Source of the DNA: Methanobrevibacter millerae
GTDB lineage: Archaea; Methanobacteriota; Methanobacteria; Methanobacteriales; Methanobacteriaceae
Direction of reading: 5' to 3'
DNA: 64,000 nt
Assembly: GCF_001477655.1 (NCBI RefSeq)
Contig: NZ_CP011266.1
Coordinates: 1,224,001 to 1,288,000 of the forward strand
Made by a program: the position numbers and the translations under genes. How positions within the stretch are numbered: the first letter of the stretch is position 1; the number at the start of each line of letters is the position of its first letter. Of the stretch, positions 25,204 to 60,750 are shown one piece after another. Below the pieces are notes generated by a model. It saw only the letters and a list, made by a program, of their open reading frames with translations, did no database searches and had not been told where the DNA came from.

Positions 25204-25241
25204 GTTTATAATATTTCTCTAAAAAAACATTCGTTTTAAAC
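25204..25241 (-). repeat. Array repeat 3
   Basis: 38 bp, T variant with seven A in the central run. It provides the last six residues and the TAG of the cassette E protein. Confidence 0.9.
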
Positions 25242-26530: not shown

Positions 26531-26567
26531 GTTTATAATATTTCTCTAAAAAACATTCGTTTTAAAC
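26531..26567 (-). repeat. Array repeat 6
   Basis: 37 bp, T variant. It supplies the TAA of the cassette B protein. Confidence 0.9.
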
Positions 26568-26945
26568 AGCAAAAATCTTTCTTAAAGTTCTAGAAATGGA
26601 ATTGCCATTTCTTTGATGTTTATTTTTATAATATCCATATTCAAATTCTTCATTAACTTTGAATAATGGTTTGAATTTAGGATATTTATTAAGAAATTCT
26701 TCAATTTCCCAATCATCAGTTTCTTCAATATATTCGTGATTTCTTTGGTATTCATCTCTAATAGCCACATGATCATATTGTTTTTTACTTAATGCAGATT
26801 TATCTTGAGCATTATGAATTTGATCATAATATAAAGTAGGATGACTAATCTCAATAACAAAAGGAATCCAATCATCTAAATTAATAAAATCATCGATGAA
26901 ATCATTGATTTTATCTTTATTAAGTTCATATTTTCTACATTGCAT
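26562..26945 (-). CDS. Cassette B: immunity-like protein, paralogue of the cassette E protein
   Basis: It has 127 residues from ATG 26945. The ATGA-overlap start used in cassette E is out of frame here after a small deletion, so the next ATG is used. The core CRKYELNKDKI, LDDWIPF, HPTLYYDQI and EYQRNHEYIEET is shared with cassette E, while the last 20 residues differ. The stop is GTT-TAA inside repeat 6. Two related toxin-tail/immunity pairs in one array point to a diversified set against similar toxins. Confidence 0.65.
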   Translation of the reverse strand: MQCRKYELNKDKINDFIDDFINLDDWIPFVIEISHPTLYYDQIHNAQDKSALSKKQYDHVAIRDEYQRNHEYIEETDDWEIEEFLNKYPKFKPLFKVNEEFEYGYYKNKHQRNGNSISRTLRKIFAV

Positions 26946-26955
26946 ATAAAACAAC

Positions 26956-34665: not shown

Positions 34666-35790
34666 TTATTTTTCTTTTCCTAAGTAATTCAATACATCAG
34701 GAACGATTTCTGCTAATGAACCGAAGTTCATGGAATCAGCAGTACCTAATAATGCGGCAGGGTTTAAAGCATCGTCCATTTTGTCGATACCTTCGTTTTC
34801 CATTAATGAATTAACTTGGGTTAATGATTCAAGAGCCATCATTTGTGCAAATCCCGCAGGTGCACCTAAGATTTGGGTAACGGTGTCTCTGTAAGCTAAG
34901 ATACCTGCATAAGTGATAGCGGTTACAGCTGAACACATGTCACATACAGGACCAACCATGTTTGCTGGTAAGGTGAATGCAGATCCCCTTGCTTTTTGTC
35001 CTAAGTCCATTAAAGTGTCGATGGAAGCCTGATCTGCGAAACCTTCAGCAATGTAGACTTGTCCTTTCATTTCAGGTACAGCACCTGGGTGGTAGGAAGC
35101 CACGTTAACGTTTGTTCCGAGGTCTTCGAAGATTTTGTTTAATCCTGTAGTAGGAATTGTACATGCGTGAGTTACTATTGCGCCTTCTTTGATATCATCA
35201 GCGAAGTTTTTGATGATGTCTGGCTGCATACCGCCTTCAGGTAACCAGGTCATAACCCAGTCAGCGTCAGCTACTGCTTCGGAATCATCAGTGGTAACTT
35301 TTATTCCTAAGTCTTCCGGGTGGGTGAAGTGAATTGCACCTTTAGCTGGTTTTGGTACGGTTTCAGCCAATTGGCCAACTTTTTCTCTGATTGCAGGCAT
35401 TACTTCTTCAGGGGTACCTGCTTTGTGAGCTGCCATAACTTCTGCATAATCGAAGTCATCCACCACTACAAAGTCACCGTCAAATACCGGATCAGATACG
35501 ACTACTTCGTCTACTCCTGCTAATTCCAATAATTCTGCACCCATTTCAATGGTTGAGTGAGTCATTGAGATGTTTTCTTTTCCGGTTGCTTCAGCAACTT
35601 CACAGGCTCTTGAGAAGTTGGTAATTCCACTTGCAGCGTGAGTTCTGTAACATCCTGCACCTAAAATTGCCACTTTAATTCCTTTATTTTCAGCTTTTTC
35701 TTCTATTTTTTCTTCAATTTTTTCATCTACGCTTTTTGCTATCTTTTCTTTATCATTTGCAAAAATTGCTTTTAATTTTTCAAAAACCAT
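34666..35790 (-). CDS. hmd: [Fe]-hydrogenase (H2-forming methylene-H4MPT dehydrogenase) with N-terminal extension
   Basis: It reversibly reduces methenyl-H4MPT with H2 to methylene-H4MPT in CO2-reducing methanogenesis, using the iron-guanylylpyridinol cofactor. Identity is clear from VAILGAGCYRTHAASG (the active-site His of Hmd, here residue 51), the iron-ligand Cys in THACTIPTT (~210), SYHPGAVPEMKGQVYIAEG and PVCDMCSAVTAITYAG. Retaining both His and Cys favours true Hmd over the HmdII paralogue. Hmd normally begins at the Rossmann strand; this protein has ~37 extra residues, highly charged (KIAKSVDEKIEEKIEEKAEN). GGAG eight bases before ATG 35790 supports that start. There are no hcg cofactor genes nearby. 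Usually induced when nickel is limiting (family knowledge). Confidence 0.93.
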   Translation of the reverse strand: MVFEKLKAIFANDKEKIAKSVDEKIEEKIEEKAENKGIKVAILGAGCYRTHAASGITNFSRACEVAEATGKENISMTHSTIEMGAELLELAGVDEVVVSDPVFDGDFVVVDDFDYAEVMAAHKAGTPEEVMPAIREKVGQLAETVPKPAKGAIHFTHPEDLGIKVTTDDSEAVADADWVMTWLPEGGMQPDIIKNFADDIKEGAIVTHACTIPTTGLNKIFEDLGTNVNVASYHPGAVPEMKGQVYIAEGFADQASIDTLMDLGQKARGSAFTLPANMVGPVCDMCSAVTAITYAGILAYRDTVTQILGAPAGFAQMMALESLTQVNSLMENEGIDKMDDALNPAALLGTADSMNFGSLAEIVPDVLNYLGKEK

Positions 35791-43540: not shown

Positions 43541-43576
43541 TTAAAAAAAAGAAGTTAAGGAATTTTTTTCCTTAAC
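43541..43576 (-). terminator. Terminator of the protease-adhesin gene
   Basis: GTTAAGGAA (43554-43562), loop TTTTT, and TTCCTTAAC (43568-43576) form a stem that includes the stop codon. On the minus strand it is followed by TTCTTTTTTTT. The neighbouring adhesin ends in nearly the same hairpin. Confidence 0.7.
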
Positions 43577-46500
43577 TTGATATTGTTACTTTGTTTGCTT
43601 CGTTGAGACCGTTGAATGTGGTTGTGATGATGTATTGGCCTGCCTGGAGATTGATGTTTATCCTTGCAATACCATTATCATCACTTATTCTATTGTAAAA
43701 TACACCGTTTATGTTGTATGTTACGCTTTGGCCTGCGTAAGGTTTTCCTTTATCGTCAAGTATTTTAGCTTCGAATTTGGATCCGTCACGATATTTCATG
43801 TACAGGTCTTTTGTCTGTATGGTTGGCAATACTTTTATAGTATTTGAAGCTCTAAGACCATTATATTCTGCAGTTATTATGTATGTTCCAGGATTAAGGT
43901 TGATGTTCATTTTAACATGTCCTGTTGCATTTGATGTTCTTTTATAGAATACTCCATTAATATTTAAATCAATTGTAACACCGGCTCCCACAGGATTTCC
44001 TTTTTCATCCAAAAGCCTTAATGTATACTGGGAAGCATTTCTATAGTATTTAGTCAAATCATGGTTTTCAACGATTGAAGGGAGTACCTTGACGATGTTT
44101 GTGTACTGTTCTGTTGAATCCGGATTTGTTGCTGTGAGAATATATGTTCCTGGATTTAAATTGATGTTCATTTTAGCAACACCATTATTATTGGTCGTTC
44201 TGGTATAGAAAACACCGTTGATGTTGAAATTTACATCAGTATTTTTTAACAGATTGCCTGATGAATCAACAAATGTTGCATAATACTGAGTACCGTTTCT
44301 AAAGATTTTAGTTATATTATTTCCTGAAACTGTTGATTTTACAGTAATTGTTGATTTAAATTTAATTCCGTCACATTCTGTTGTCACATCATATTTTCCA
44401 CTGTTCAGGTTAATTGCCATAGATGCTTGACCATTTTCGTCAGTAATTCTTGTATATGGCCGGCCGTTTAAAGTGATTATAACTTCCTTATTTACCAATG
44501 GCTTATTGTCCTCTTTAATGGTTACTACAAATTTTTCAGATCCCTTAAAGTATTTAGTCAAATCCGGAGCCAAAATATTGATTCTGACATCTTCAATTTT
44601 AAATGAAATGCTGTTTGATGTAGAGGTCTTGTAGTTTGTACTTCCTTTATATGTAGCTTTTACAACATATGAACCTGCAGCAAGATCAGATAATTTGACA
44701 CTGGCTACACCGTTAGTAATCCTGACAGTATATTCTTTGCCGTTTACAGTAAATACTACATCTCCTGTTGCTGATGGAGAATCAACATCTGCCCTTATTG
44801 TATATGTGTTTGGACCATTTTCAGTTGAAATTATATCTGTTTTTGTAGAGATTTTTTCTATTACTACATTAGAAGTCGCAGATACTCTATCATATTCATA
44901 ATTTCCTTCAAATACAATATCTGCTTCATAAGTTCCATAGTTCAAATTCAAATCAACATATACCTTACCATTGCTGTCAGTAGTTAATGAATATATTTTA
45001 TCTCCAAGTGTTATCTTAAGCTTTGCATTGCTTATTGTATTAAAATCCTGATCGGTCAATGTGATTACCAGTTTATCATCATCCCCATAAGTTTTTGTAA
45101 CGTCTGGAGCAATAATATTAAGATAATGAGGTTTAACATTGAATTTTACAGTATTTGAATCTGATGATTTATAGATATCATCTCCATTATATCTAGCCTT
45201 TACGGAATATGATCCAACATTCAAATCTGACAATATATATGTTGCCTGGCCGTTTGAAAGTTTTAAAGTGTAATCTTTACCATTAATATTAAATACAATA
45301 TTTCCTGTTGCATCTGACGAATTAACTTTAGCTGTTAATGTAACCATATTGTTTTTTATTTGATTGAATGATAATGAGGATGTGGTTGACAGCTTGTTTA
45401 CAATGATTTTTGAAGTTATAGATACCTTTTCATATTCATCATTTCCTTCAAATATGATATCTGCTGTATAATTTGCACATTTTAAATCCAAATCCATGGA
45501 TGTTTTACCGTTGCTGTCTGTTGTTTTCGTGTAAGTCTTACCATCTATTTTTATTTTAAGCTGAATGTTAGCTACAGGCTTTGATTCCTGATTGGTAACA
45601 GCAATCATCAATTTTTCAGACCCGCCGTAGTTTTTAGTTACATCAGAGGCTTTGATATTGAGATAGTGTGCATCAATATTGAATGATGCTGTGTTTGAAG
45701 AGGATGATTTATAGTCTGAATCTCCTTTATATGTGGCTTTAACAGTATATGAGCCTGCCTTTAGATTGGATAATGTGTATGTTGCCTTGCCGCCAGAAAT
45801 TTTAACAGTATAATCCTTGCCGTTAATATTGAATGCAACATTTCCGGTTGCATCTGACGGATTGACAGTGGCGGTTAAGATGACATTATTTGCATTCCTG
45901 TTTAAAGACAATGCGGTTTTTGTATTCATTTTATTCACTGTAAAGTTAAATGCAGCTATATTGGATGAATACCTATTGCTTTTATATTCTGATTTTAATT
46001 CATAAGTTCCTGCCTTGTCAAAGCTAACAGTTAAGGAAGCCTTGCCGTCATGGATTCTTGCATAGTAATATTTTCCATTGATGCTTACTCTGGCGAATGA
46101 ACCTTCAATCCTTTCTATCGAATCATTTTCAAAATATTGTGAAATCGTTGATTTATCATCTGTCAGTGTAATGTTTACAGTAACCTTTTCGCCGATGTCG
46201 AGATTGTTGAATTTGCTAACATCAACTTTTAATTTTGCTGAATATAAATCACTTATTGGTGAAAATAGCTGAATTGCAGGTTCTGCAATCATGCCTTCAT
46301 ATTCAGTCACATCCACAAATGTTTTTCCTTCATCAAAGCTAACGAAAGACCAGTTTGTATAAAATTTGGATGCGGACAACTCATCAACCAGATAAATAGG
46401 TAAATAATTTAATCCGTCATTGCAGTATCCTATTCTTATCCATATCTCATCTCCTAAATCAAATGTTATTTTCTTTTTGAATGGAATTGTATAATATCCT

Positions 46501-49418
46501 GCCTGGGAAAATCCCTCTTGAGATAAGATTAATTTTCCGTTAGTATGAGGATTTCCTTTATAAACACTTACAGTATAATTTGTTGGAGCTTTAAAGTATG
46601 TTGCAAATGCAGAAAATCCGTCATCAAGAAGTGCCTTATATTCATCATATGCTGCTTCAACACGAATTTCACAGTATATAGGACTATCAGAATAGATGTA
46701 ATCGCTTATTCCCGAACAATAAATTGGATTTGATATATAATTATCATTTTCATTAAATATGAATGTGTATGCATGAGCATAGTCATTTTCATCGCTTACA
46801 AAAGGAGTGTCATATGAAAGATAACCGAAACCGTTGTCCTCCCAGTCTGTTCCCCAGCTGTTTTTAATTATCCATGCGCCTTTCGCATAATCGCCAAATG
46901 AATCATATGTGTTATAGTTATCGTTCCATCCAACAATGCTTACTGCATGAAGATCCGGAGAGTTGAATGTAACTGGAACTGTCCCATAATCGCTTATTAC
47001 CTTTTTGTATGTTTCATTATATAGTGTATTGTATGAAATGTATCCTATTCCATTATTTTTCCATTCTGAATTCCAGATATTTTTATACATCCATGCTCCT
47101 TCAGTATATCTGCCGAAGGAATCGAAATCATTGTAGTTGTCATCCCAACCGATTAGGTTGGTTGAATAATAATTTGGAATATATATGGTAATTGAAACAG
47201 CACCATAATCCATTATCGCTTTTTTATATAAATCATCATTCACTCCTTTTTCACGTTCAGGAAGGAAATATATATTTTGAACATGGAACTCGGCATCAAA
47301 AGGAACGGAGATTGATGAAAGATCATCATATGCATCATATTCCTCAAGGGTAGGTCCAAGCCAGTTGGTCAGATATCCCATAAACATTGAATCATATCCT
47401 CCTGAATTTGGTTCCAAATCCATTCCTGCTCTTGAAAATGATGCCATGACATTTTTCACATTTTCCTCTGAAAGGTCATATGTTATGTTAGTTATCTTTT
47501 TAATGCATGCCTCAAGTGTTGCAATACCAGCAAATGCCCAACAGTTACCTCCTTCTGCCTGATCCTTTACAGGAGTAATATATCCATAATCCCTTGAATC
47601 ATATGATGAAGGAATATTTTTCAAATCAGATAAGGAACTGTTAATTAGAGGAACATTGGCTCTTTCTACAGTATATCTATCTATTAATGTATTAATCATG
47701 TATTTGTTGAAATATATGGAAGCATCCATTTCATATTCATCTACCTGGATGACATCTTCGACTATAATATTTCCCAGGCTATTTATTATATAAATTTTAA
47801 AGAATGCATCCTTTAAAGGGGCATTATAACCGTCAACTTTAAAATGAATCATGAAATTATCTTCATAATTTCCCTTAATTGTGGATTTTGCCGGATTTTT
47901 CGTGTCATAAATCTTTAGATTTCCATTACTGCCGGAAGTGATGTTTTCATATTCATCATAATAACTTCCCGTATTGGACAATATATATTTCATAGGATTG
48001 CTTTTGAATGTTACTCTTTTTCCGTTTTCATAATTTGTAAATTCACCATAAATCTGATATGAGTCTTCAAAATGGTTATTTTTTAGGTTTATGTCTTTGG
48101 ATGAATCAATAACTATGCTTGAGCCCGAATCATCATCTGAAGTTGAGTTTACGAAATAATTTTCCCTTAATGATAATGAGTCTGAAGATTCACTGTATAT
48201 TGCACTTCCAAGATAAGCATAGGATACATAAAATGTATCATCATAGAAATTCATTTTTCCATAAATATTATATATTACTCCACCCATATCTTCAGCATAA
48301 TTGTTATGGAAAGAGGATGAGTTTGCACTTAAATTCCCATTCAAATTGGCAATAACTCCGCCAAATTTAGCGTATCCCCATCTAAGATATGAAGAGTCTA
48401 TATTCACATTGCCTTTGAAATTATAGATTGCTCCTCCGGCATCATTAAGTGAATAGAAAAATGCAAAATCACATGAGTCTATATTGATGTCACTGTATTT
48501 TGAAGCTATTACACCACCAAAGCTGTCAGCATTGGAATTATAAAAATTATTTTTATATAAGTCAAGAAGACTGTTTTGTGAATATATTGTTCCGCCATAG
48601 CTCGCATTGTTCATGTTAAAATCGGAAGATTCAATTGTTATATCTGAATTTATCGAATAGATGACTCCACCTTTTCTTTCTGCATTGGAATTGAAAAATT
48701 TGGATTTCTTAACTTCCAGTCTTGAATTTTTTAAAGAGATTGCCCCACCGCTATATGCATAAGTATTGTTGAAGACACATTTTTCCAGATAGACATAAGG
48801 AGTTGAATCATCAATAGGATCACATATTATAACACCACCATATGAGCTGCCATATTCTTTAGTGTTATATGTAGCGGGAGCATTATATCCACTGAATGCA
48901 CTGCTTTTATCGAAATTCACACCATATGCTTCGACTGTACCATGATTTTGAATGTTTGCCTTGTTGAATGTGACATTTCTTATTTGAAGTTTTGAATCAT
49001 CCATGATTTCAAAATCATACTTGTTGGATAAAATTGAATTAAAAATAGTTTTTTCTGTGCTTTCACCAATCAAAGTCATATTTGAGGAAATCTTAAATGG
49101 AGTGTTTAAGCTGTAAATTCCATCTGAAAAATATGCAGTAATGTCATTTCCAGACAATGTGTTTTGATTTACATACTTATAAGGATTTGACTTTGACCCA
49201 TCACCGTTGGAACTGGCAGATGCATCAAAATAGATTACTTTACTATTATCATCATTTAATTTTGAATTATCGACAGAAATGCCGATTAATCTACTATTGT
49301 CTATTCCATTATCTTCAGCCAATGTCATATTATCGTTTAAGTCATTGGCGCTGACCGAAGATATGGCAGATAGACACAATATCATCAATAAAATTATAAT
49401 ATATTTTTTATTGGACAT
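43572..49418 (-). CDS. Adhesin-like protein with embedded papain-like (C1A) protease
   Basis: This 1948-residue secreted protein has a signal peptide (YIIILLMILCLSAISSVSA). A right-handed beta-helix (~60-480) repeats units such as GGAIYNFKGNVNIDSSYL. A C1A protease follows (~600-890) with catalytic Cys in GGNCWAFAGIA (~624), His in DLHAVSIVGWND (~823) and Asn in KNSWGTDW (~851). Next is a lectin-like beta domain (~890-1100), then eight or so Ig-like repeats with GSYTVKATYKGD and INGVFY.R patterns. The protease contains an internal duplication whose first copy lacks the His and Asn. It probably binds and digests host, plant or microbial surface protein. It has no sorting signal; the Ig-like C-terminus may hold it to the wall. 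Confidence 0.9.
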   Translation of the reverse strand: MSNKKYIIILLMILCLSAISSVSANDLNDNMTLAEDNGIDNSRLIGISVDNSKLNDDNSKVIYFDASASSNGDGSKSNPYKYVNQNTLSGNDITAYFSDGIYSLNTPFKISSNMTLIGESTEKTIFNSILSNKYDFEIMDDSKLQIRNVTFNKANIQNHGTVEAYGVNFDKSSAFSGYNAPATYNTKEYGSSYGGVIICDPIDDSTPYVYLEKCVFNNTYAYSGGAISLKNSRLEVKKSKFFNSNAERKGGVIYSINSDITIESSDFNMNNASYGGTIYSQNSLLDLYKNNFYNSNADSFGGVIASKYSDINIDSCDFAFFYSLNDAGGAIYNFKGNVNIDSSYLRWGYAKFGGVIANLNGNLSANSSSFHNNYAEDMGGVIYNIYGKMNFYDDTFYVSYAYLGSAIYSESSDSLSLRENYFVNSTSDDDSGSSIVIDSSKDINLKNNHFEDSYQIYGEFTNYENGKRVTFKSNPMKYILSNTGSYYDEYENITSGSNGNLKIYDTKNPAKSTIKGNYEDNFMIHFKVDGYNAPLKDAFFKIYIINSLGNIIVEDVIQVDEYEMDASIYFNKYMINTLIDRYTVERANVPLINSSLSDLKNIPSSYDSRDYGYITPVKDQAEGGNCWAFAGIATLEACIKKITNITYDLSEENVKNVMASFSRAGMDLEPNSGGYDSMFMGYLTNWLGPTLEEYDAYDDLSSISVPFDAEFHVQNIYFLPEREKGVNDDLYKKAIMDYGAVSITIYIPNYYSTNLIGWDDNYNDFDSFGRYTEGAWMYKNIWNSEWKNNGIGYISYNTLYNETYKKVISDYGTVPVTFNSPDLHAVSIVGWNDNYNTYDSFGDYAKGAWIIKNSWGTDWEDNGFGYLSYDTPFVSDENDYAHAYTFIFNENDNYISNPIYCSGISDYIYSDSPIYCEIRVEAAYDEYKALLDDGFSAFATYFKAPTNYTVSVYKGNPHTNGKLILSQEGFSQAGYYTIPFKKKITFDLGDEIWIRIGYCNDGLNYLPIYLVDELSASKFYTNWSFVSFDEGKTFVDVTEYEGMIAEPAIQLFSPISDLYSAKLKVDVSKFNNLDIGEKVTVNITLTDDKSTISQYFENDSIERIEGSFARVSINGKYYYARIHDGKASLTVSFDKAGTYELKSEYKSNRYSSNIAAFNFTVNKMNTKTALSLNRNANNVILTATVNPSDATGNVAFNINGKDYTVKISGGKATYTLSNLKAGSYTVKATYKGDSDYKSSSSNTASFNIDAHYLNIKASDVTKNYGGSEKLMIAVTNQESKPVANIQLKIKIDGKTYTKTTDSNGKTSMDLDLKCANYTADIIFEGNDEYEKVSITSKIIVNKLSTTSSLSFNQIKNNMVTLTAKVNSSDATGNIVFNINGKDYTLKLSNGQATYILSDLNVGSYSVKARYNGDDIYKSSDSNTVKFNVKPHYLNIIAPDVTKTYGDDDKLVITLTDQDFNTISNAKLKITLGDKIYSLTTDSNGKVYVDLNLNYGTYEADIVFEGNYEYDRVSATSNVVIEKISTKTDIISTENGPNTYTIRADVDSPSATGDVVFTVNGKEYTVRITNGVASVKLSDLAAGSYVVKATYKGSTNYKTSTSNSISFKIEDVRINILAPDLTKYFKGSEKFVVTIKEDNKPLVNKEVIITLNGRPYTRITDENGQASMAINLNSGKYDVTTECDGIKFKSTITVKSTVSGNNITKIFRNGTQYYATFVDSSGNLLKNTDVNFNINGVFYTRTTNNNGVAKMNINLNPGTYILTATNPDSTEQYTNIVKVLPSIVENHDLTKYYRNASQYTLRLLDEKGNPVGAGVTIDLNINGVFYKRTSNATGHVKMNINLNPGTYIITAEYNGLRASNTIKVLPTIQTKDLYMKYRDGSKFEAKILDDKGKPYAGQSVTYNINGVFYNRISDDNGIARININLQAGQYIITTTFNGLNEANKVTISS

Positions 49419-49534: not shown

Positions 49535-49571
49535 ATTCAAAAAAAGAAGTTAAGGAATTTTTTTCCTCAAC
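49535..49571 (-). terminator. Terminator of the 1052-residue adhesin
   Basis: GTTAAGGAA (49549-49557) pairs with TTCCTCAAC (49563-49571, one G-T). It has the same design and sequence as 43541-43576. Confidence 0.65.
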
Positions 49572-52500
49572 TTGATATTGTTACTTTGTTTGCTAATGCA
49601 GCACCATTAGAATACATTGAAGTAATTATGTATTCCCCTGCCATTAAATTAATATTCAGGCGCGCAATACCATTACTATCAGTTATTCTATTATAGAACA
49701 CACCATTGATATTGAAAGTTATTATTTGTTCTGCAAATGGTTTTCCTTTACCATCCAATAGTTTTAATTCAAACTTGGTTCCATCACGATATTTCATGTT
49801 AACATCTTTTGCTGAAAGAATTGGCAATACTTTAACGGTATTTGACGCCATAAGTCCATTATATTCCGCAGTTATTATATATGTTCCAGGATTCAAGTTA
49901 ATGTTCATGTTCATATATCCAGAAGCATTTGTCTTTCTCTCATAGAACACTCCATTAATATTTAATTTAACAGTAACTCCCTCACCAACAGGTTTTCCAT
50001 TACCACCCAATATTCTAAGAGTGTATTTTGATTCATTTTTGTAGAATTTAGTTAAATCATGGTTTTCCACAATTGATGGCAAGACAGTAATTCTTGTTGT
50101 ATGCTGTTCGCCTGATGCAGGATTAGTTGCAGTTAAAACATAAGTTCCAGGGTTTAAATTAATGTTCATTTTTGCAATACCCTGATCGTTGGTGGTTCTG
50201 GTGTAGTAGACACCATTGATGTTTAATTTGACTTGAGTGTTCTTTAACAGATTTCCTTGAGAATCAATAAATGTAGCATAATATTGTGTGTCGTTTCTAA
50301 AAATTTTAGTGAAGTCATTTGAAATAACAGTATCTTTTACAGTAACAGTAGAATATACTTTAATTCCACCATATTCTGTTGTTATTTTGTATTTTCCACT
50401 GTTTAAGTTAATTGCCATTGAAGCCTGACCATCACTGTCAGTTGTTCTGATATAAGACCTGCCATTAAGATTAATAGTCACATTCTTACCGACAACTGCT
50501 TTATAATCTTCCTTAACAGTAACAACAAATCTTTCAGGACCATTATAGTACTTGGTTAAGTCAGGTGCAGAAACTTCAATTTTAACATCCTCAACTGTGA
50601 ACTTGACTGAAGTGGAAGAAGATGATTTATGGTTAATATCACCACTGTAGGTGGCTTTAGCTTCGTAAGACCCCACAGCCAAATTGTTTAAAGTGTAAGT
50701 TGCCTTTGCACCACTAACCGCAGCAGAATACTCTTTACCATTAACAATAAAAGTAACTTTACCTCCCACAGTAGCCGGAGAAATAGTAGCTGTTAAAGTA
50801 ACACTATTGTGAGAATTTTTATTATAAACTAAAGTAGTTTTAGTATTTAATGGATTAACAGTAACTTTTGCAGAAGTGGAAATATCCTTATAAGTTACTA
50901 TAACATCATAAGTACCTACAGGCAGATTAATTGCCATTGAAGCCTTACCTTTACTGTCAGTAGTCCTAGAATAGTCAACACCATTAATGTTAATATTAAC
51001 ATTAACATTGGCAACAGGAGAACCAGATTCAGTTAAAGTAATTTCCAACCTCTCAGGACCACCATAATCTTTAGTAACATCAGGAACATTCAAAACAGAA
51101 CCGCCAACAGTCAGATATCCGTCAATCACATCACAATTGTCAGTGAATTTACTGGATAAGTAACCGGTGACTTTATAAACGCCTTCCTTAAAATCACACC
51201 TAAGCCTATATCCGCCAGTACCTTCATCAAAGTATCCCAAACTGCATTCATATCTGATTGAAGAATCATCAACATTAGTCAATATTGCCTTAATATCATA
51301 ACCGGATTCATAAATCTTATTGTTGAATATGCGGATAGCATTACCGTCTTTATCATATAATTTACAGATAGTAACGGCATCTTTTGGAGCGACAGTTTCA
51401 TTTTCAAAAACTAAAAATGTCTTAAAATCAAATGAATTCGTTGAATTATAATATATATCATAAGTATAATCGGAATCTATTTTATTATCGGATATATTTA
51501 ATTTGTTTTTGTTTTCATGTGTTTTATAATATATGCATTCATGATTAACATTTTGGCTGAATTTACAATTATAAACATTTGTAGCACCTAAAGCAGCTAT
51601 GGAAGCACCGCTTTGAGAAACAGCATTATCTTTAAAATTACAATTATATATTGCGGTTAACCAGTTATTTGAAGTGATTTTAGGCTCAGCGGTATAAATT
51701 GCACCGCCAATATCTGCATCATTATTATTAAAATCACAGGAATCAATCAAAGAGTTACTGGCAGAAATTGCACCTCCTTTTTCAGCAGTGTTAAACATGA
51801 AAAATGAATTTAAAACATTACCTTTATATAACTCTATTGCCCCTCCCTCTTTAGCGAGATTATTGAAAAAATTGGATTGTATAATATTTATGTAATTCGG
51901 CGAATAGACTGCACCCCCATTTTTAGCCTGATTTCGGATGAAAGTGGAATTTTTGATATTGCTTGATAATCCATAACTCGCATAAACTGCACCGCCAAGA
52001 TTACTTGCAACATTATCTGTAAACATACAGTTTTCTATGTTAAGCTTACCTGATGTAACCCACGGGTAATAATAAATAGCCGCCCCATCATCAGCATAAT
52101 TATTTGAAAACTTAGAATCCTTCACGGTTAGATGTGTACAGCTACCTCTTATTGCACCATTATTATTGTTAAAATTAGAATTATATACTTCCATTTCACC
52201 CCCAAACACAATAGCCGGACCGCCAGTCGAATCAGAAAAATTACAGGAATCAATGTTAATAGTTGGTGATGTTTGATATGAACCATATTTTCCAGCATAT
52301 AAAAAAGAAGAAACATCATTATAACCATTAATAAAATTTATATTTTTCAATTCCAAATAGGCGTGAATATCAAAAACTCTTGATTTACCCAATGCATCAA
52401 TTGTATGGCCATTACCGTCAATAGTTATTTTATGATTAATTACAATACCGTCACTGCTAAAACCTTGATCATATTTATAATCATTTTCCAGATAGATTGT

Positions 52501-52725
52501 TGAACCTGCACCTGCATTATTAATCTTTTCCTGCAATGCAGTGAAAGTTCCATCATCCTTTGCACTTAATTCATCTTCACTTAAAGATACGCTTAAAGTA
52601 TCTTCACCACTAACCAAATCGTTAGTATCATCATAAATTGTCTGATTTACATCTTCTACTGCTGATACACAGGACAGAGAGATAATAAATACAAACAATA
52701 AAATTATTAAAAATCGTTTTTTCAT
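49567..52725 (-). CDS. Adhesin-like protein (beta-helix plus Ig-like repeats)
   Basis: The protein has 1052 residues. A signal peptide (FLIILLFVFIISLSCVSA) leads to a beta-helix (~60-460) with repeated GGAVYSPNYINIIQSNFF-type coils. Ig-like repeats with VPDVTKDYGGPERL, TYKDISTSAKVTV and NINGVFYERKT make up ~540-1052. The last ~250 residues are close to the C-terminus of the protease adhesin, as is the 3' hairpin, pointing to duplication or gene conversion between neighbours. It is a surface attachment protein; the ligand is unknown. Confidence 0.88.
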   Translation of the reverse strand: MKKRFLIILLFVFIISLSCVSAVEDVNQTIYDDTNDLVSGEDTLSVSLSEDELSAKDDGTFTALQEKINNAGAGSTIYLENDYKYDQGFSSDGIVINHKITIDGNGHTIDALGKSRVFDIHAYLELKNINFINGYNDVSSFLYAGKYGSYQTSPTINIDSCNFSDSTGGPAIVFGGEMEVYNSNFNNNNGAIRGSCTHLTVKDSKFSNNYADDGAAIYYYPWVTSGKLNIENCMFTDNVASNLGGAVYASYGLSSNIKNSTFIRNQAKNGGAVYSPNYINIIQSNFFNNLAKEGGAIELYKGNVLNSFFMFNTAEKGGAISASNSLIDSCDFNNNDADIGGAIYTAEPKITSNNWLTAIYNCNFKDNAVSQSGASIAALGATNVYNCKFSQNVNHECIYYKTHENKNKLNISDNKIDSDYTYDIYYNSTNSFDFKTFLVFENETVAPKDAVTICKLYDKDGNAIRIFNNKIYESGYDIKAILTNVDDSSIRYECSLGYFDEGTGGYRLRCDFKEGVYKVTGYLSSKFTDNCDVIDGYLTVGGSVLNVPDVTKDYGGPERLEITLTESGSPVANVNVNININGVDYSRTTDSKGKASMAINLPVGTYDVIVTYKDISTSAKVTVNPLNTKTTLVYNKNSHNSVTLTATISPATVGGKVTFIVNGKEYSAAVSGAKATYTLNNLAVGSYEAKATYSGDINHKSSSSTSVKFTVEDVKIEVSAPDLTKYYNGPERFVVTVKEDYKAVVGKNVTINLNGRSYIRTTDSDGQASMAINLNSGKYKITTEYGGIKVYSTVTVKDTVISNDFTKIFRNDTQYYATFIDSQGNLLKNTQVKLNINGVYYTRTTNDQGIAKMNINLNPGTYVLTATNPASGEQHTTRITVLPSIVENHDLTKFYKNESKYTLRILGGNGKPVGEGVTVKLNINGVFYERKTNASGYMNMNINLNPGTYIITAEYNGLMASNTVKVLPILSAKDVNMKYRDGTKFELKLLDGKGKPFAEQIITFNINGVFYNRITDSNGIARLNINLMAGEYIITSMYSNGAALANKVTISS

Positions 52726-52974: not shown

Positions 52975-54033
52975 TTAGGATTTGATTTTATTATAAACAG
53001 CCATAGGCAATAATATAATCAGGAATACTGCAAAGATTAAAACTGGAATGATTGCATAGTTATGGGCTGATATAGCTTTTATTGGAGAGCCTGATGAATT
53101 GGAATCTGAATCATCAGAACCTGAAGACGGGTTGAATATGTCCAATATTGAATTGCCTATTGATTCAAAAGTGCTTGAAATTTCACGGGCAACAGAATCA
53201 GTTGTTTTGGCTATTGTGTCTAATGGACTTGCATCATCACTAGGAAGTGAATCCAAATCATCTGATGAAATCAGCTGTGATTTCATGTCTGATTTTGATT
53301 TTGTTTCAATGCCTGATGATTCATCATCAGAACTTTCAACTGCAGGCTTTTCATCTTCAACTTGCCTTATATCAGAATCTGTGTTTTCACTAGCATAATG
53401 GCTATTATGCTGCGGCCCTTTTTTATCATCACTTGTTTTTGTAACGTTGGATGTTACTTTTGATGAACCGCTTTTGATGGATGTAGTGATGAAATTTGAT
53501 AAATATGCATCATTTGAATCTGCAGATACATAGGATGTGAGCTTGAATGTACCATCAGTTTTTAGTCTTGTCAGTATCACTAAGGATGCATTTTCATAAC
53601 TTTTCAATTCACCAATACTCCAAATTCCAGTTATTGGATTATATTCTCCAACTGTTGCATTATGTGATAGATATATTAAATTTGAGGAAAACGTTTCATT
53701 TGCCTTGATGTTATGAAGAGCCCCTCCATTTGCCGTGACAGAAATAGTCCATGGAACTTCAGATCCTGCACGATTAAAGCTATTTTTTACAAATGAGCTT
53801 TTAACGCTCACGTCAACAGACAAAGCGGCACTGCTGCCGGATGTGTTTTCGGCATATAACTCAGTGTTTTTGTCAGTTAAATCTTCACTAATCATATCAA
53901 TATTATTACCGATAGCTGATGGAGCATCATCCACGGACGATGCATCTGAAGTTATATTTTCACTGGCTGCAACGCATCCAAGAGAAAACATTACTCCTAT
54001 GGTTACTACCAATATTAAATATCTTAATTTCAT
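52975..54033 (-). CDS. Membrane-anchored surface protein with DUF11-like domain and acidic stalk
   Basis: The protein has 352 residues. Signal peptide (YLILVVTIGVMFSLGCVAAS), one beta domain (~65-185) similar in plan to that of the LPATG protein (TVGEYNPITGIWSIGELKSY), a long Ser/Asp-rich stalk (~190-315) and a C-terminal helix (YAIIPVLIFAVFLIILLPMA) with a basic end. There is no LPxTG here, so it stays in the membrane with the stalk crossing the wall. Confidence 0.75.
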   Translation of the reverse strand: MKLRYLILVVTIGVMFSLGCVAASENITSDASSVDDAPSAIGNNIDMISEDLTDKNTELYAENTSGSSAALSVDVSVKSSFVKNSFNRAGSEVPWTISVTANGGALHNIKANETFSSNLIYLSHNATVGEYNPITGIWSIGELKSYENASLVILTRLKTDGTFKLTSYVSADSNDAYLSNFITTSIKSGSSKVTSNVTKTSDDKKGPQHNSHYASENTDSDIRQVEDEKPAVESSDDESSGIETKSKSDMKSQLISSDDLDSLPSDDASPLDTIAKTTDSVAREISSTFESIGNSILDIFNPSSGSDDSDSNSSGSPIKAISAHNYAIIPVLIFAVFLIILLPMAVYNKIKS

Positions 54034-54162: not shown

Positions 54163-55023
54163 TTATTTAATTGTATAACTTTGATTTGAAAGCAGTTTAT
54201 TGTTTATGTCCATCAGTTTAAATTCAATATGTGTAATATTATTAGTGTGAACATCACAGTCACATATCACCCCTGATTTAAATTCATCAGCTGTAGAATT
54301 TACTTCAAAAAGCATATTTTCATTTGCATCGAAAAATTTAATGTTCATGAAGTATTTTTCCGGATTGGCAGGCATGTTTAGAGATTCTCCATGAACAACA
54401 TATCTGCTTCCGCTTGCATCGACACCAGTGATGTTCATGGAAAATATGCCGTCTTCGGAACTGTTCTGCCCCATCGGAAGAACTGCAAAAAGATATACCA
54501 GAATCAATATGACAGCTACTGGAACTGCAATCTTTAGATATTTCTTTGCAATGTTTTCTTTTCTTTTTGGATTTACCTTTTCAAGTACACTAAGTGACTT
54601 TGAATTGGTTTTAATTTTATTTATTGGTTTTTTTACAAATTCTGATGTGTCTTTTATAAGGATTTCCAGCTGATGTTTAGTATCTGGAAATGAGTATATC
54701 ATCTTTTTTCTATCCAAAATGAACTGGAGATTCTTGCCTATCCTTATATCGTCAATGCTGAATATCAGGATGGGAATGTCTCTTGAAAATGCTATATCCA
54801 CTTCAGTTATCACATAGTTTGTATCCTTTGAATTCTTTGAATAAATAAGAATAAAACATTTGGAATCTGATATTGCATTGGTAATATTATCTACAGGGTC
54901 ATCCGAAGAAAAATCCCTTGACTTAATCCATGTTCTGATATTGTTCTGCTCGAATACATCACATATTGCTTCGCTTATCTGCTGGTCTTTTTCATCATAA
55001 CATATATAAGCATCATGCACCAT
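54163..55023 (-). CDS. TIR-domain protein with membrane anchor and outer domain
   Basis: This 286-residue protein has an N-terminal TIR domain (~1-125): HDAYICYDEKDQQISEAICD, a boxed RTWIKSRDF, and the catalytic-type Glu at ~74 in TNYVITEVDIAFS. One helix follows (~165-185, LKIAVPVAVILILVYLFAVL), then an extracytoplasmic beta domain. TIR domains cleave NAD+ or signal by self-assembly in immune systems. A TIR domain coupled through the membrane to an outer sensor domain is suggestive of envelope surveillance. It follows the second TIR gene by nine bases. Confidence 0.85.
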   Translation of the reverse strand: MVHDAYICYDEKDQQISEAICDVFEQNNIRTWIKSRDFSSDDPVDNITNAISDSKCFILIYSKNSKDTNYVITEVDIAFSRDIPILIFSIDDIRIGKNLQFILDRKKMIYSFPDTKHQLEILIKDTSEFVKKPINKIKTNSKSLSVLEKVNPKRKENIAKKYLKIAVPVAVILILVYLFAVLPMGQNSSEDGIFSMNITGVDASGSRYVVHGESLNMPANPEKYFMNIKFFDANENMLFEVNSTADEFKSGVICDCDVHTNNITHIEFKLMDINNKLLSNQSYTIK

Positions 55024-55032
55024 AATATAGCC

Positions 55033-55857
55033 TCAAATTTGTGAATATTCATCATAAAGATAGTCAAAGATTTCCTCATTTGATGATGCAAATCTTAAAA
55101 CTGACTTTCTGGTTAAAAATTCATTTCTAATTACAAGTCCGTATATTATACACATTGCCCAGAATATGAAAAAGAGCAATGCAAATAGAATAAACATTGG
55201 ATAGTAAAGGAACAGTTGTCCAAAGATCTGGAAATAAATCAGCAAACAAATTAATGTCGGAATCAAATATATTACTCCCATCAATGCCCATAGCTTTTTG
55301 CTTGAAACAATTCCCATATAGATAATTGAAAACCAGTAAAGTGGAGTGAAAAGCAGTATGAGGGATATGTAATCCTTTTTGTGACTGGACAAGTCATCTT
55401 GCTTATAGTCTGAGAAGTCTATGATGATTGAAACATCACTATTTTCATTACATAATTTCAATGCGTCAATAATCAGTGTTTCGAATTCATCTTCAGGATT
55501 TGGATGTGCATTAAGCCATTGCGTTACCTTCAGATAGTATTCCATGTTTTCCTTAGGCAGAGTATCATCAATGTTGAATGAAAGGATAGGTTTGTTGTTG
55601 GAAAATGCCATATTGATTTCATTGTCAACATATTTTGAATTCTGGGAATCTTTTGAATATATTAAAACAACGATTCTTGTGGATTTTATGGCTGCTGCAA
55701 TCTCATCAATATAGATTTTGCCTGAAGCGATATCACGGGGAGCTATCCAGCATTTTAGATTGTTCTGCTCCAGAACATAACATATCTTATTGGCCACATC
55801 ACTGTCTTTTGTGGAATAGCTTATAAAAACATCATGCTTGTAGTTATCCAGACTCAT
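55033..55857 (-). CDS. TIR-domain protein with C-terminal membrane helices
   Basis: The protein has 274 residues. TIR domain (~1-140): HDVFISYSTKDSDVANKIC, KCWIAPRDI and VDNEINMAFS with the NADase-type Glu at ~80. Four helices follow (~165-255, LILLFTPLYWFSIIYMGI and IFILFALLFFIFWAM). The start overlaps the upstream gene's stop by four bases. It is paired with the other TIR protein, so the two may form one membrane complex. Confidence 0.86.
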   Translation of the reverse strand: MSLDNYKHDVFISYSTKDSDVANKICYVLEQNNLKCWIAPRDIASGKIYIDEIAAAIKSTRIVVLIYSKDSQNSKYVDNEINMAFSNNKPILSFNIDDTLPKENMEYYLKVTQWLNAHPNPEDEFETLIIDALKLCNENSDVSIIIDFSDYKQDDLSSHKKDYISLILLFTPLYWFSIIYMGIVSSKKLWALMGVIYLIPTLICLLIYFQIFGQLFLYYPMFILFALLFFIFWAMCIIYGLVIRNEFLTRKSVLRFASSNEEIFDYLYDEYSQI

Positions 55858-56345
55858 AATACCACCTTGCTGTTGAATGCAGTATCTAAAACAAATTCTC
55901 TGTTATTTCCATCAAAGAGATAAACTGTTGTTTGATTTTTAAAGGATAGTTTGTCCTTGTCGAACGAATCCACAGGAATGATTATTGAATGATACTTGAA
56001 TCCCTTATCATCACCAAATTCCATTGTAAGCAGGTAACAGCTCTCGTTTTTATAGTCAACAGTTCCCTGATTAACATTGGCAAAATGATTCAAAAGGTTT
56101 GTCAGCTTTGAATCTGATGAATTCAGCCTACTAACATCCATATTGTAAAAATCATACATTGAGTTTCTAAATTCAACCGTATTTCCATTGATTTCATATC
56201 CAGAACTCGAAGGATAATACATTGTGATTGAATCTGTAACATTTCTTTCCTTTTCCATGTATTTATAATCCATGAACGAGTATGATCCATAAATCAGAAG
56301 AATAATAGATGTTATTATAATCAGATATTCAATTTTTTTATTCAT
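55854..56345 (-). CDS. Small membrane-anchored outer protein upstream of the TIR pair
   Basis: It has 163 residues from ATG 56345, with GGGTG six bases upstream inside the longer frame. One N-terminal helix (YLIIITSIILLIYGSYSFM) is followed by an extracytoplasmic alpha/beta domain (YYPSSSGYEINGNTVEF ... VYLFDGN). It is the first gene of the three-gene TIR operon and overlaps the next by four bases, so it probably acts as the sensor or ligand part of the system. The outer domain resembles the PsbP-like modules in the neighbouring adhesin. Confidence 0.65.
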   Translation of the reverse strand: MNKKIEYLIIITSIILLIYGSYSFMDYKYMEKERNVTDSITMYYPSSSGYEINGNTVEFRNSMYDFYNMDVSRLNSSDSKLTNLLNHFANVNQGTVDYKNESCYLLTMEFGDDKGFKYHSIIIPVDSFDKDKLSFKNQTTVYLFDGNNREFVLDTAFNSKVVL

Positions 56346-56547: not shown

Positions 56548-59500
56548 TTAAAAGGTCATTGAACTAGCTATGGATTCAACGATATCCCTTTGATTGCCCA
56601 TTACGCCAAATGTGATTCCGCTGTTTTCACAATATGCAAAGTATGCCTGGGAATTGATTGTTGCCAAGGTCCATCCTCCATATGTGTCTATGATGCTTCC
56701 GCCATTACTTGTAATTATATTTAGGTATGAATTTTTTGAAAAGGTAGAATCTTCAGTTATCTGATATGTGTTTCCATCATATGTCACCTCAAATACTGCA
56801 GCGTTTCCCTCATCCTTTATTAATTCAATTGTGGCGGATTCCGGAAGCACTACATGAAAGTGTCCGCAGTCATATTCAACCATATCTTCGTCAATTTCAC
56901 CGCTTTTGCCGCTGTCTGCATTATCCGGAACACATCCAGGAACTCTTTTCAATGATCCTGCAATCTGTTTTGCAATGGACAGGTCATTTGATGAAACAGT
57001 ATATACTGGATTTGAATTGCATATCAACACATATGCTTCATTAGTGGAAGATGCGGATGCTTTGTTTAGGATTATCCAGTTTCCATATGATCCTGTATTT
57101 AAATAACCGCCATAGTTCATATAGAATCCAACATTACTTTGATAGGTATCTGAATGTTCACTTATATGAACATATTGTCCGTTTGAATATCTAACTATAC
57201 ATGAACCTGTATTAACTACAAAAGCATCTTCACATTTAGCATCTTTTGGAACTTCAACAGTAAATCCGTATGACTTGTGGGTAATCATGCTGGAAGATCT
57301 GATGACAATCTTGTTTGCTGCATTCAATCCGTTGTATGAAGCTGTAATGATGTATGTTCCAGGCTGAAGGTTAATATTCAATCTGGCTATTCCATCTGCA
57401 TCAGTTACTCGATCATAGAATACTCCATTGATGTTTAATTTGATACTTTGGCCTGCATAAGGTTTTCCCTGACCGTCAAGCAGTTTTGCCTCATATTTTG
57501 TGCCATCCTTATATTCCATGTTCACATCCTTACCGGTTAATACATTCAGGACCTTGATAGTGTTTGATGCCCTTAGACCATTGTATTCGGCAGTGATGAT
57601 GTATGTTCCAGGCTGAAGGTTAATGTTCATTTTTACATATCCGTCATCGTTTGAGTTTCTTGTATAGAATACTCCGTTGATGTTGAACACTACACTTTGG
57701 CCTGCCTTTACAGGTTTACCGTCTGCACCCAATAGCCTTAGTGAATATGCGGATGCATTCCTATAGTATTTTGTCAAATCATAGTTTTCCGTAAATAGAC
57801 TATTTACGGTGACAACGTTAGTATACCGCTCGCCTGATGAAGGGTTTGTTGCAGTAATCACATACTTTTTAGGGTTCAAATTGATGTTCATCTTTGCGCT
57901 ACCCTGATCGTTTGTTGTCCTTTCGTAGAATACTCCGTTGATGTTAAATTTGACATTTGTGTTTTTCAAAAGATTGCCCTGAGTGTCAACGAAAGTCGCA
58001 TAATACTGGGTATCGTTTTTATACATTTTAGTAATGTCATTTCCGCTGACTGTTGATTTGACAGTTACTTTGGACTGTACTTTTACTCCATCACATTCAA
58101 CAGTTACCGGATAATTACCACTGTTCAAATTAATTCCCATGCTGGTCTTTCCGCTACTGTCTGTGGTTTTTGTATATGTCTGACCGTTTATATTAATGCT
58201 AACCTGTTTATTTGCAAGAGAATTTCCTGCACTGTCAGTGACCTTTACATTAAACCTTTCAGATCCTCCATAATACTTGGTAATGTCCGGTGCATCAATT
58301 ATAAGTTTCTTTTCTTCTAAAGTTACTTTAGCAGATGCCTGTGAAGACTTATAGTTTGTGCTTCCTGCATATGTAGCTTTAACGTCATATGTTTTATAGT
58401 CTAGGTCTTTGACAGTTACTGCAGCCTTTCCGTTGCTTATGGTTGCAGTGTAGTCCTTGTTGTTTATGTTGAATACAACTGAACCTGCTGCAGCAGACGG
58501 AGTGACGCTTGCTGTTAATGTAGCTGTCCTGTCAGCTGACTGTGAAGCGGTTAATTTTAAAGAAGTACTTAACTTATTGACTGTAATCTTGGATGTGGTT
58601 GAAACTTCTTTATATGAAATGACTGCATTATATGTGCCGCTGTTTAGGTTTATGGCAAGTGAAGTCTTACCTGATGAATCAGTAGTTTTTGTATAATTTC
58701 CCTTATTGATGTTGATTAGCACATTTGCATTAGCTATTGGCTTGCTGTTTTCAGTCAGTGTAATTTGAAGGCTTTCAGATCCGCCATAGTTTTTAGTAAC
58801 ATCTGGTGCATCTATTTTAATGGATAGCGGAATTACTACAACATTGTTTCCTTCAATTGCAATATCATTGTGGAGTTTAGTCTTATTGTTTTCAAAGACA
58901 TCATATTTGATGGTACCGTCATTACCAAACCAGTAAAGTGCACCTCCTATATCTGTAGCAGTGTTTTTGGCAAAATTGGAACTGACCAGACTGCCGTCAT
59001 CTCCACCCCAGTTTATTGCTCCACCATTTGCTGCATTATTTTCTGTGAATGTTGACTTTTCAACAGTTGCTTTATTACCGCTTACCTTTATTGCTCCACC
59101 ATTAAGTGCACTGTTTTTATCAAATTGACAGTTTATTATTTTATCATTTATTCCATCAATATCTATTGCACCACCATTCAATGATACGGTGTTGTTTATG
59201 AATTTGGAATCTTCTACAGTCACATCATCCCCATATAATCTGATAGCACCACTGTCAAATGCCTTATTGTTTTTAAATTCTGATTTGGATATTTTACCGT
59301 TGTTTCCACTCCAGTAAACTGCACCTGCACTACTTAATCCTGCTGCTATGCAGTTTGTAAATGTTGAATCGCTTAGTTGCCCATTATTTCCAGCCCAATT
59401 AATGGAACCGCCATTTCCATCACCATAACTGTTTTTAAAATCACAGTTAGCTATGGAACTGTCATCACTGTTCATTATCACATCAGCAGCACCATATTTC

Positions 59501-60750
59501 CCATAGTTATCTAAAAATATAGAATCTTTGACAGTAACATTGGTATTTTCTGCATTTATTGCACCATAATTTCCAGTATTGTTTTTAAATGTACAGTTTT
59601 CTATGACATCTGCACCATCATTGTCCAGATAGATTGCAGCTCCGAGATATGGAACTTCATTGTTTTCAAAATATGAATTTATAACTTCAATTCCTTCTTC
59701 ACTGACTGAATAAATTGCACCTCCATGATTGCTTCCGGTTGATTTGGTTACACGATTGTTTGTGAATATGGAATTGATTACACTTGCAGCACCATATGAA
59801 TCCATTTTTATAGCACCTCCTCTGTATTCTGCATAATTGTCATTAAAAATACAGTCAGGTATTCTCAAATTACAGTAGTTAATACTTATTGCTCCACCTT
59901 CAAGTGCATAGCACTCTTCAAAGCTGCTTTCAGATACTATGCTATCAAATCCTGTGTGGACAATAGCTCCTCCAAGGTTAGCATAGTCATGAAGGAATGT
60001 GCATGCAGTCAAAAGTCCATCATCGCCTGACCAGTAGATTGCTCCACCAGCATTGTTTGCATAATTCCTCTCGAAATTACATGAATCAACAGTAACACCT
60101 TCAGCATCTACTGAAAGAGCACCACCGTCACCTTCATCAAGAGCATAATTTTTGTAGAAATCTGATGCTGTAATGGATAAACATTCACCATCTATCAATA
60201 TTGCTCCACCGTAACCGTACTCTTCAGTTGCATTGTTACGGTTGAATGTACAGTGGTCCACTTCACCGTTTGTTCCATTCCAGTATATTGCTCCTCCTGC
60301 AAGAGCAGCATTATATTCAAGAGTACTCTCCACAATGCTGCCTGAGTCTCCATTCCAGAGTATTGCTCCGCCCTTGTCATCTTCACAATATCCATTAATC
60401 AATGTTAAACCTTTCAGATTGACATTTGATGCTTCGATATCAAATATTCTTGATAATCCTTTTCCATCAATCGTATAGTCATTACCGTTTATTGTCAAAG
60501 CCTTGCTGATTTGGATTCCTGAAGTGTCAAATCCATCGTTATATGTATAATCCTTATCTAGGTTAATAGTGCTTCCCTGACCGGCACTATTGATCTTGTT
60601 TTGAAGTTCACTGAATGTTCCTGCACCGGCACTTATTGCACCATCATCAGTTGCATTTAGAGATATTACATCGGAATCAACATCGCTGGCTGATACGCAA
60701 CCTATTGATATGACGAACAATAATAAACAGACCATTAATATTTTCTTCAT
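56548..60750 (-). CDS. Adhesin-like protein with beta-helix, Ig-like repeats and two C-terminal PsbP-like modules
   Basis: The protein has 1400 residues. A signal peptide (ILMVCLLLFVISIGCVSAS) leads to a beta-helix (~50-610) of very regular coils (GGAIYWSGDDGLLTACTF). Ig-like repeats occupy ~640-1150 (INGVFYTRNSNDDGYVKMN). Unlike the other two adhesins it then has two related alpha/beta modules (~1155-1275 and ~1285-1400; SYGFTVEVPKDAKCEDAF and HFHVVLPESATIELI). The secreted 188-residue protein at 62 kb has the same kind of fold, so these are probably modular wall or partner-binding units. Confidence 0.85.
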   Translation of the reverse strand: MKKILMVCLLLFVISIGCVSASDVDSDVISLNATDDGAISAGAGTFSELQNKINSAGQGSTINLDKDYTYNDGFDTSGIQISKALTINGNDYTIDGKGLSRIFDIEASNVNLKGLTLINGYCEDDKGGAILWNGDSGSIVESTLEYNAALAGGAIYWNGTNGEVDHCTFNRNNATEEYGYGGAILIDGECLSITASDFYKNYALDEGDGGALSVDAEGVTVDSCNFERNYANNAGGAIYWSGDDGLLTACTFLHDYANLGGAIVHTGFDSIVSESSFEECYALEGGAISINYCNLRIPDCIFNDNYAEYRGGAIKMDSYGAASVINSIFTNNRVTKSTGSNHGGAIYSVSEEGIEVINSYFENNEVPYLGAAIYLDNDGADVIENCTFKNNTGNYGAINAENTNVTVKDSIFLDNYGKYGAADVIMNSDDSSIANCDFKNSYGDGNGGSINWAGNNGQLSDSTFTNCIAAGLSSAGAVYWSGNNGKISKSEFKNNKAFDSGAIRLYGDDVTVEDSKFINNTVSLNGGAIDIDGINDKIINCQFDKNSALNGGAIKVSGNKATVEKSTFTENNAANGGAINWGGDDGSLVSSNFAKNTATDIGGALYWFGNDGTIKYDVFENNKTKLHNDIAIEGNNVVVIPLSIKIDAPDVTKNYGGSESLQITLTENSKPIANANVLININKGNYTKTTDSSGKTSLAINLNSGTYNAVISYKEVSTTSKITVNKLSTSLKLTASQSADRTATLTASVTPSAAAGSVVFNINNKDYTATISNGKAAVTVKDLDYKTYDVKATYAGSTNYKSSQASAKVTLEEKKLIIDAPDITKYYGGSERFNVKVTDSAGNSLANKQVSININGQTYTKTTDSSGKTSMGINLNSGNYPVTVECDGVKVQSKVTVKSTVSGNDITKMYKNDTQYYATFVDTQGNLLKNTNVKFNINGVFYERTTNDQGSAKMNINLNPKKYVITATNPSSGERYTNVVTVNSLFTENYDLTKYYRNASAYSLRLLGADGKPVKAGQSVVFNINGVFYTRNSNDDGYVKMNINLQPGTYIITAEYNGLRASNTIKVLNVLTGKDVNMEYKDGTKYEAKLLDGQGKPYAGQSIKLNINGVFYDRVTDADGIARLNINLQPGTYIITASYNGLNAANKIVIRSSSMITHKSYGFTVEVPKDAKCEDAFVVNTGSCIVRYSNGQYVHISEHSDTYQSNVGFYMNYGGYLNTGSYGNWIILNKASASSTNEAYVLICNSNPVYTVSSNDLSIAKQIAGSLKRVPGCVPDNADSGKSGEIDEDMVEYDCGHFHVVLPESATIELIKDEGNAAVFEVTYDGNTYQITEDSTFSKNSYLNIITSNGGSIIDTYGGWTLATINSQAYFAYCENSGITFGVMGNQRDIVESIASSMTF

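Follow-up and report, generated by a model that had tools for sequence, protein, structure and literature searches.

Architecture of the TIR operon

Methanobrevibacter millerae SM9 is a rumen methanogen (PMC4987999). The M. millerae genome around the window, by which we mean the whole analysed stretch of 64,000 nucleotides, is a single contig of 2,543,538 bp. Three open reading frames, placed at 54163-56345 by an earlier note, were found there, all on the minus strand. P3 (55854-56345, 163 aa) consists of an N-terminal helix (signal anchor) and an outer domain with a PsbP-like predicted fold. TIR2 (55033-55857, 274 aa) carries a canonical TIR domain at its N-terminus, followed by a membrane tail, and TIR1 (54163-55023, 286 aa) carries a divergent N-terminal TIR domain, one helix and an outer beta-sandwich. 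The reported four-base overlap is correct for P3 and TIR2, which share ATGA, whereas TIR2 and TIR1 are separated by a 9-base gap. Upstream of P3 lies the gene of an adhesin-like protein with beta-helix and Ig-like repeats (56548-60750). Beyond TIR1 are the genes of a DUF11 surface protein (52975-54033), an adhesin-like protein with Ig-like repeats (49567-52725), and a giant adhesin with a papain-family (Peptidase_C1) domain and Ig-like repeats (43572-49418). These four genes are also on the minus strand, and their domains were assigned with Pfam.

Based on the Pfam TIR_2 model (cut-off 28), TIR2 (E 2.9e-21, 76.7 bits) and TIR1 (E 1.1e-12, 49 bits) belong to the TIR domain superfamily, and they are the only TIR_2 matches in the whole genome. 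The TIR domain of TIR2 spans residues about 7-137 and contains Glu80 and a CWIAPRDI loop. Its membrane tail spans about 160-245 and is followed by a conserved cytosolic end. Simple hydropathy gives three strong hydrophobic segments in the tail (166-184, 189-207, and 221-239), so the four helices originally described are not secure, and three or four is the better statement. TIR1 contains Glu74, lacks the AP loop motif, and has a helix at about 165-183 and a beta-sandwich at about 190-286. Six Lys/Arg residues precede the helix and none follow it; this charge bias supports a single-pass, N-in/C-out topology. Besides a long helix and the outer beta-sandwich, the predicted structure of TIR1 shows a TIR fold near that of SARM1 (target TM-score up to 0.72). 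As modeled, TIR1 thus appears to unite an ectodomain, a single helix and a cytosolic TIR domain in one protein.

Comparison with orthologues sets the start of P3 at 56345, as does a GGTGT-like site that precedes the ATG at 9 of the 11 loci described below. P3 matched no Pfam, PADLOC or NCBIfam family and no PDB sequence. Its predicted model (mean pLDDT 83) resembles PsbP (E 8e-4), BT_1490 (E 1.8e-3), and Tsi3 (E 0.015) in the fold of the outer domain but not in sequence, and at query TM-scores of about 0.40-0.45 the PsbP-like fold is a hint only. N-glycosylation sequons occur at 2.8 per 100 aa in the outer part of P3 and at 3.3 in that of TIR1, both above shuffled sequences, versus 0.4 and 0.6 in the TIR domains. 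This dense and sparse distribution supports the placement of both ectodomains outside the cell.

Conservation of the operon and of two TIR lineages

We searched 67 genomes of the genus and 152 of the phylum. Full-length orthologues of TIR2 and TIR1 together with P3 are present in nine of the 67 genus genomes, always adjacent and in the same order, and P3 is confined to these nine within the genus. In the phylum, two more full-length P3 genes lie beside TIR genes, in M. ruminantium M1 (G085) and in the metagenome-assembled genome G100, which brings the operon to 11 of 152 genomes in two genera; full-length P3 occurs nowhere else there. All 11 keep the four-base overlap between P3 and TIR2 (ATGA; GTGA in G100), and their operon proteins are about 50-70% identical. 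Because order and overlap recur at this level of divergence, the three-gene arrangement is not due to chance. Linkage in relatives was the check by which the earlier note was prepared to be refuted; once run, it found the genes linked in every relative. A second operon copy, cut by the contig end, is present in G032, and in G054 the operon has as its immediate neighbor a cluster of Pbe-type and type IV restriction genes (L067:1-8179, plus strand, contig 1). G082 contains a weak partial P3 match, and TIR genes are absent nearby.

The mean pairwise identity of the outer domains (0.58) is close to that of the TIR domains (0.54 and 0.67). With conservation so similar in both, the sequences give no sign of an arms race. 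Pairwise distances among the three proteins correlate (rho 0.48-0.71), as expected of co-inherited genes. The protein encoded at 34666-35790 was tried as a species-tree marker, and its gene is not universal.

Two related operon families occur in the genus. Family B comprises two TIR-helix-ectodomain proteins and one single-pass protein, and family C comprises a single-pass protein, a TIR protein with a membrane tail, and further TIRs. TIR domains from 22 operons were aligned, of which 10 resemble the operon in the window, 8 belong to family B, and 4 belong to family C. The upstream, TIR2-type domains all contain the motif CW.AP(R/E), and Glu and an aromatic residue at position E-4 are each present in 22/22. 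In the downstream, TIR1-type domains, AP is never found at this place and the loop is mostly one residue shorter; Glu is present in 23/25 (Asp in the other two) and the E-4 aromatic residue in 21/25. In a maximum-likelihood tree, the upstream and downstream kinds split at 100/100. Collectively, the alignment and tree indicate an old, heterotypic TIR pair whose members have stayed together, and in which the upstream kind, with its intact BB-loop motif, is more likely to be the enzyme than the downstream kind.

For P3 itself, homology to the family C upstream gene is suggestive only, the profile comparison resting on two-row profiles (hhalign E 8e-6 and 5e-5). A relationship to the third family B gene found no support, as the profile match extends no further than the helix and the first part of the ectodomain. 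Separately, the TIR pairs of family B (L073, L074, L075, L076, L084, and L096) occupy a recurring place near the gene of a conserved 250-aa protein that starts with MKD(V/I)ENYIRDILK; this place may be a hotspot of insertion or a position fixed long ago. Contig 11 of G060 encodes two proteins of 615 and 639 aa that consist for the most part of several tandem TIR domains and have no obvious membrane part (L078:8164-11966, plus strand).

Surface proteins linked to the operon

The operon had been described as set among adhesins, and this setting proved to be more than scenery, for one DUF11 protein and papain-domain adhesins travel with it. The DUF11 protein (Pfam E 1.7e-14) has a signal peptide-like start, the DUF11 domain, a low-complexity stalk and a C-terminal helix. 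Full-length orthologues are present in 7/9 operon genomes of the genus and in 0/58 of the other genus genomes, in which the best match reaches 58 bits (Fisher 4e-8, the related genomes not being independent). The gene adjoins TIR1 on the same strand in M. millerae, G011, both copies in G032, M. ruminantium M1, and G100. In G060, G012, and G054, it lies behind or before the adjoining adhesin gene, and G013 has it on the opposite strand.

For the papain adhesins, we defined a subgroup by a score of at least 208 bits to window positions 46869-47663 (group 1). In M. millerae, the adhesin is separated from the operon by the other adhesin gene and the DUF11 gene. Members of the subgroup are found within about 12 kb of the operon in 7/9 operon genomes of the genus; they end 24 (G054) or 61 (G032) bases before P3, or start 35 bases after TIR1 (G060 and G012). 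Proteins with papain domains also flank the operon of M. ruminantium M1 and lie upstream of it on the G100 contig. Because the subgroup is also present in 11 genomes that lack the operon, the papain adhesin is a frequent but not exclusive companion. In G021, the operon is present and both partners are absent, while the G042 contig stops inside an adhesin gene. Collectively, the unit is larger than three genes, with the DUF11 protein and giant papain adhesins linked to the operon.

Adhesin-like proteins with the same domain types have been described in M. ruminantium M1, where the authors suggested a role of the papain-domain members in turnover of the pseudomurein wall; TIR genes are not mentioned there (PMC2812497). 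The papain domain of the M. millerae adhesin (43572-49418, minus strand) shows a partial internal duplication at about 46869-47663 and beyond, in which the C-terminal half is present in two copies; of these, only the second seems to retain intact His and Asn positions.

Comparison with known TIR systems

The operon TIRs share the TIR fold and a weak profile similarity with ThsB of Thoeris. TIR2 passes the ThsB_TIR Pfam model (31.4 bits; cut-off 21.2), which TIR1 fails, and the Type III ThcB4 model gives 25.7 bits against a cut-off of 220. Unlike Thoeris, however, the operon has a membrane tail, ectodomains and two unlike TIRs, and no ThsA-type effector (SIR2-SLOG or macro) was found among the neighbors scanned. 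Membership in Thoeris was therefore rejected, as no such effector gene lies beside the TIRs and the ThsB-type scores fall far below the curated cut-offs. STALD matches are absent from the M. millerae genome and from 10/11 operon genomes. The strong match in the remaining genome (G032; L135, E 3.5e-68) lies on contig 49, which is not that of the operon, and probably belongs to a separate Thoeris system. Membership in Pycsar or CBASS was rejected as well: the three-gene operon contains no cyclase, its neighbors are surface proteins, and model scores are weak (CAP12-PCTIR, 28.3 bits against a cut-off of 24.7, TIR2 only).

Similar to Toll-like and IL-1 receptors, TIR1 is predicted to be a single-pass TIR protein with an ectodomain, and TIR2 is best matched in PDB, by sequence, by TIR-STING and TLR1/2/6. 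IL-1R family members also act as heterodimers (PMC7075850). In contrast to these receptors, the operon TIRs are N-terminal, in reversed order, with other ectodomains and no leucine-rich repeats or animal adaptor. The likeness is thus a resemblance of plan, and we claim no common descent as a receptor. Plant RPS4/RRS1 likewise consists of two unlike TIRs working as a pair, and 4c6t is among the structure matches of TIR1, but these are soluble NLR proteins with no membrane or ectodomain parts. In the literature searched, no description of membrane TIR pairs in archaea was found.

The glutamate that the earlier note called NADase-type is present in both proteins (E80 in TIR2 and E74 in TIR1) and is kept in 10/10 orthologues scored for each. 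However, it is not specific to NADases. Over 70% of all TIRs, TLR1/2/6/10 among them, have a Glu at the catalytic position; this residue is common in TIRs with no reported enzyme activity and does not necessarily track activity (PMC7075850). Both TIR kinds carry this NADase trait in their sequences, although it is not diagnostic. A closer case is TcpO of Methanobrevibacter olleyae, a demonstrated NADase that produces variant cADPR (PMC10022894, PMC10937652). G083 encodes a 341-aa protein with a C-terminal TIR domain and a Glu at 279, which fits TcpO in length and residue number. TIR2 aligns with it at 29% over 80 residues, and E80 falls on E279. Like TIR2, TcpO is a TIR protein of a related rumen methanogen; unlike TIR2 and TIR1, its TIR is C-terminal (204-341), and it has no pair, ectodomain or membrane tail. 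TcpO shows that a TIR from this group of organisms can act as an NADase, which does not make TIR2 one.

A proposed receptor-like complex and its alternatives

The topology, the strict linkage and the heterotypic TIR pairing lend good support to the idea of a sensing unit that spans the membrane, its TIRs facing the cytosol and its folded domains exposed at the surface. From the observed anatomy, linkage, co-occurrence, topology signals and two TIR lineages, we infer a complex, its signal, NAD+ as its substrate, catalysis by TIR2 and an outcome for the cell. In our reading, to which we assign a probability of about 0.5, the operon encodes a heterotypic, receptor-like TIR complex that spans the envelope, senses when the surface is contacted or damaged, and switches on TIR2. 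P3 and TIR1 would hold folded domains outside the cell, and the unlike TIR domains of TIR2 and TIR1 would sit on the cytosolic side of the membrane. The DUF11 protein and the papain adhesin would be the likely partners, or else would supply the signal. When the pseudomurein surface is contacted, cleaved or disturbed, the outer parts might change and thereby bring TIR1 and TIR2 into a heterotypic TIR assembly; the two-lineage pairing is consistent with such ligand-induced assembly. The assembly would then activate TIR2, whose BB-loop motif is intact, with TIR1 and P3 as sensing or gating parts. The likeliest output would be cleavage of NAD+, either as depletion or as a cyclic ADP-ribose signal.

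We favor this reading because order and overlap hold in 11/11 genomes with P3 found only there, the TIR lineages separate at 100/100 in 22 operons, and the TIR2-type Glu and E-4 aromatic residue are invariant (22/22). In addition, the sequons and charges, the linkage to DUF11 and papain proteins, and the alignment of E80 with E279 of the TcpO-fitting protein point the same way. Against it stand the frequency of the Glu in TIRs with no reported activity, the operon's want of a dedicated effector, the partnerless operon of G021 and the papain subgroup of the 11 operon-free genomes, and also the third gene of family B, which is not demonstrably a P3 homologue. A bolder version is an archaeal complex like a Toll receptor, in which an obligate pair of unlike TIRs, with NAD+ cleavage as the readout, watches the pseudomurein through the DUF11 protein as a dedicated partner and the protease-adhesin and turns contact or wall damage into growth arrest. 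We regard this version as doubtful, if conceivable.

Among the alternatives, the TIRs could be non-enzymatic adaptors, and the complex a scaffold through which export, anchoring, processing or expression of the DUF11 protein and papain adhesin would depend on the condition of the surface, with no cleavage of NAD+. The tight linkage to surface-protein genes would suit such a scaffold, as would the TIR-STING and TLR1/2/6 matches of TIR2, a Glu that does not track NADase activity (PMC7075850), and the Asp that replaces it in the TIR1-type members of one family C operon. However, a pure adaptor would not need the TIR2-type Glu and E-4 aromatic residue that persist in 22/22, and a related methanogen possesses a TIR protein fitting the NADase TcpO. 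We therefore consider adaptors unlikely.

A role in phage defence, which the earlier note had entertained, found little support. In that case, a virus that attaches or enters would be sensed by the outer domains or by the membrane module, and the TIRs would halt growth. The patchy spread (9/67 genus species genomes), the weak similarity to ThsB-type TIR models, the restriction genes beside the G054 operon copy, and the bacterial TIR systems described in the literature as sensing phage would agree with this role. In contrast, no defence genes were noted at 10/11 loci, whose flanks were read and partly scanned with defence models, and most loci lie among adhesins. The operon contains no ThsA-type effector and satisfies no defence-family model in full, the STALD/ThsA gene is missing from 10/11 operon genomes, and the viral contigs scanned contain no P3 relative. 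The outer domains, as conserved as the TIRs, show no rapid divergence. Defence against phage is thus rather improbable. A defence island was likewise rejected, with G054 alone beside Pbe and type IV restriction genes (other flanks partly scanned), and so was carriage by phage or plasmid, with one distant plasmid match to TIR2 and none to P3 in the viral scan. Finally, the adhesin link might be a by-product of common, rearrangement-prone adhesin arrays around an operon that works alone, given how many such genes there are (12 papain-domain matches in the M. millerae genome; 105 adhesin-like genes in M. ruminantium M1, PMC2812497), the varying gene order and the partnerless G021, but the 0/58 count for full-length DUF11 orthologues and their position adjoining the operon or one gene off in most loci, including the second copy in G032, make this very improbable.

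Most prokaryotic TIR systems in the literature and structures searched sense phage or nucleic acid inside the cell. If our receptor-like reading is correct, a membrane TIR pair with outer domains in rumen methanogens would extend TIR signalling to sensing at the archaeal surface and would offer a simple model for heterotypic TIR activation. Furthermore, the link to the operon provides a clue to the function of methanogen papain-type adhesins, for which a role has so far only been proposed.

Elsewhere in the window, two near-alike small proteins whose family is not known are encoded about 1 kb apart on the minus strand (25219-25623 and 26562-26954). A short open reading frame at 5873-6757 (plus strand) combines a partial condensation match with the start of an AMP-binding domain, an apparent relic of a non-ribosomal peptide synthetase gene.
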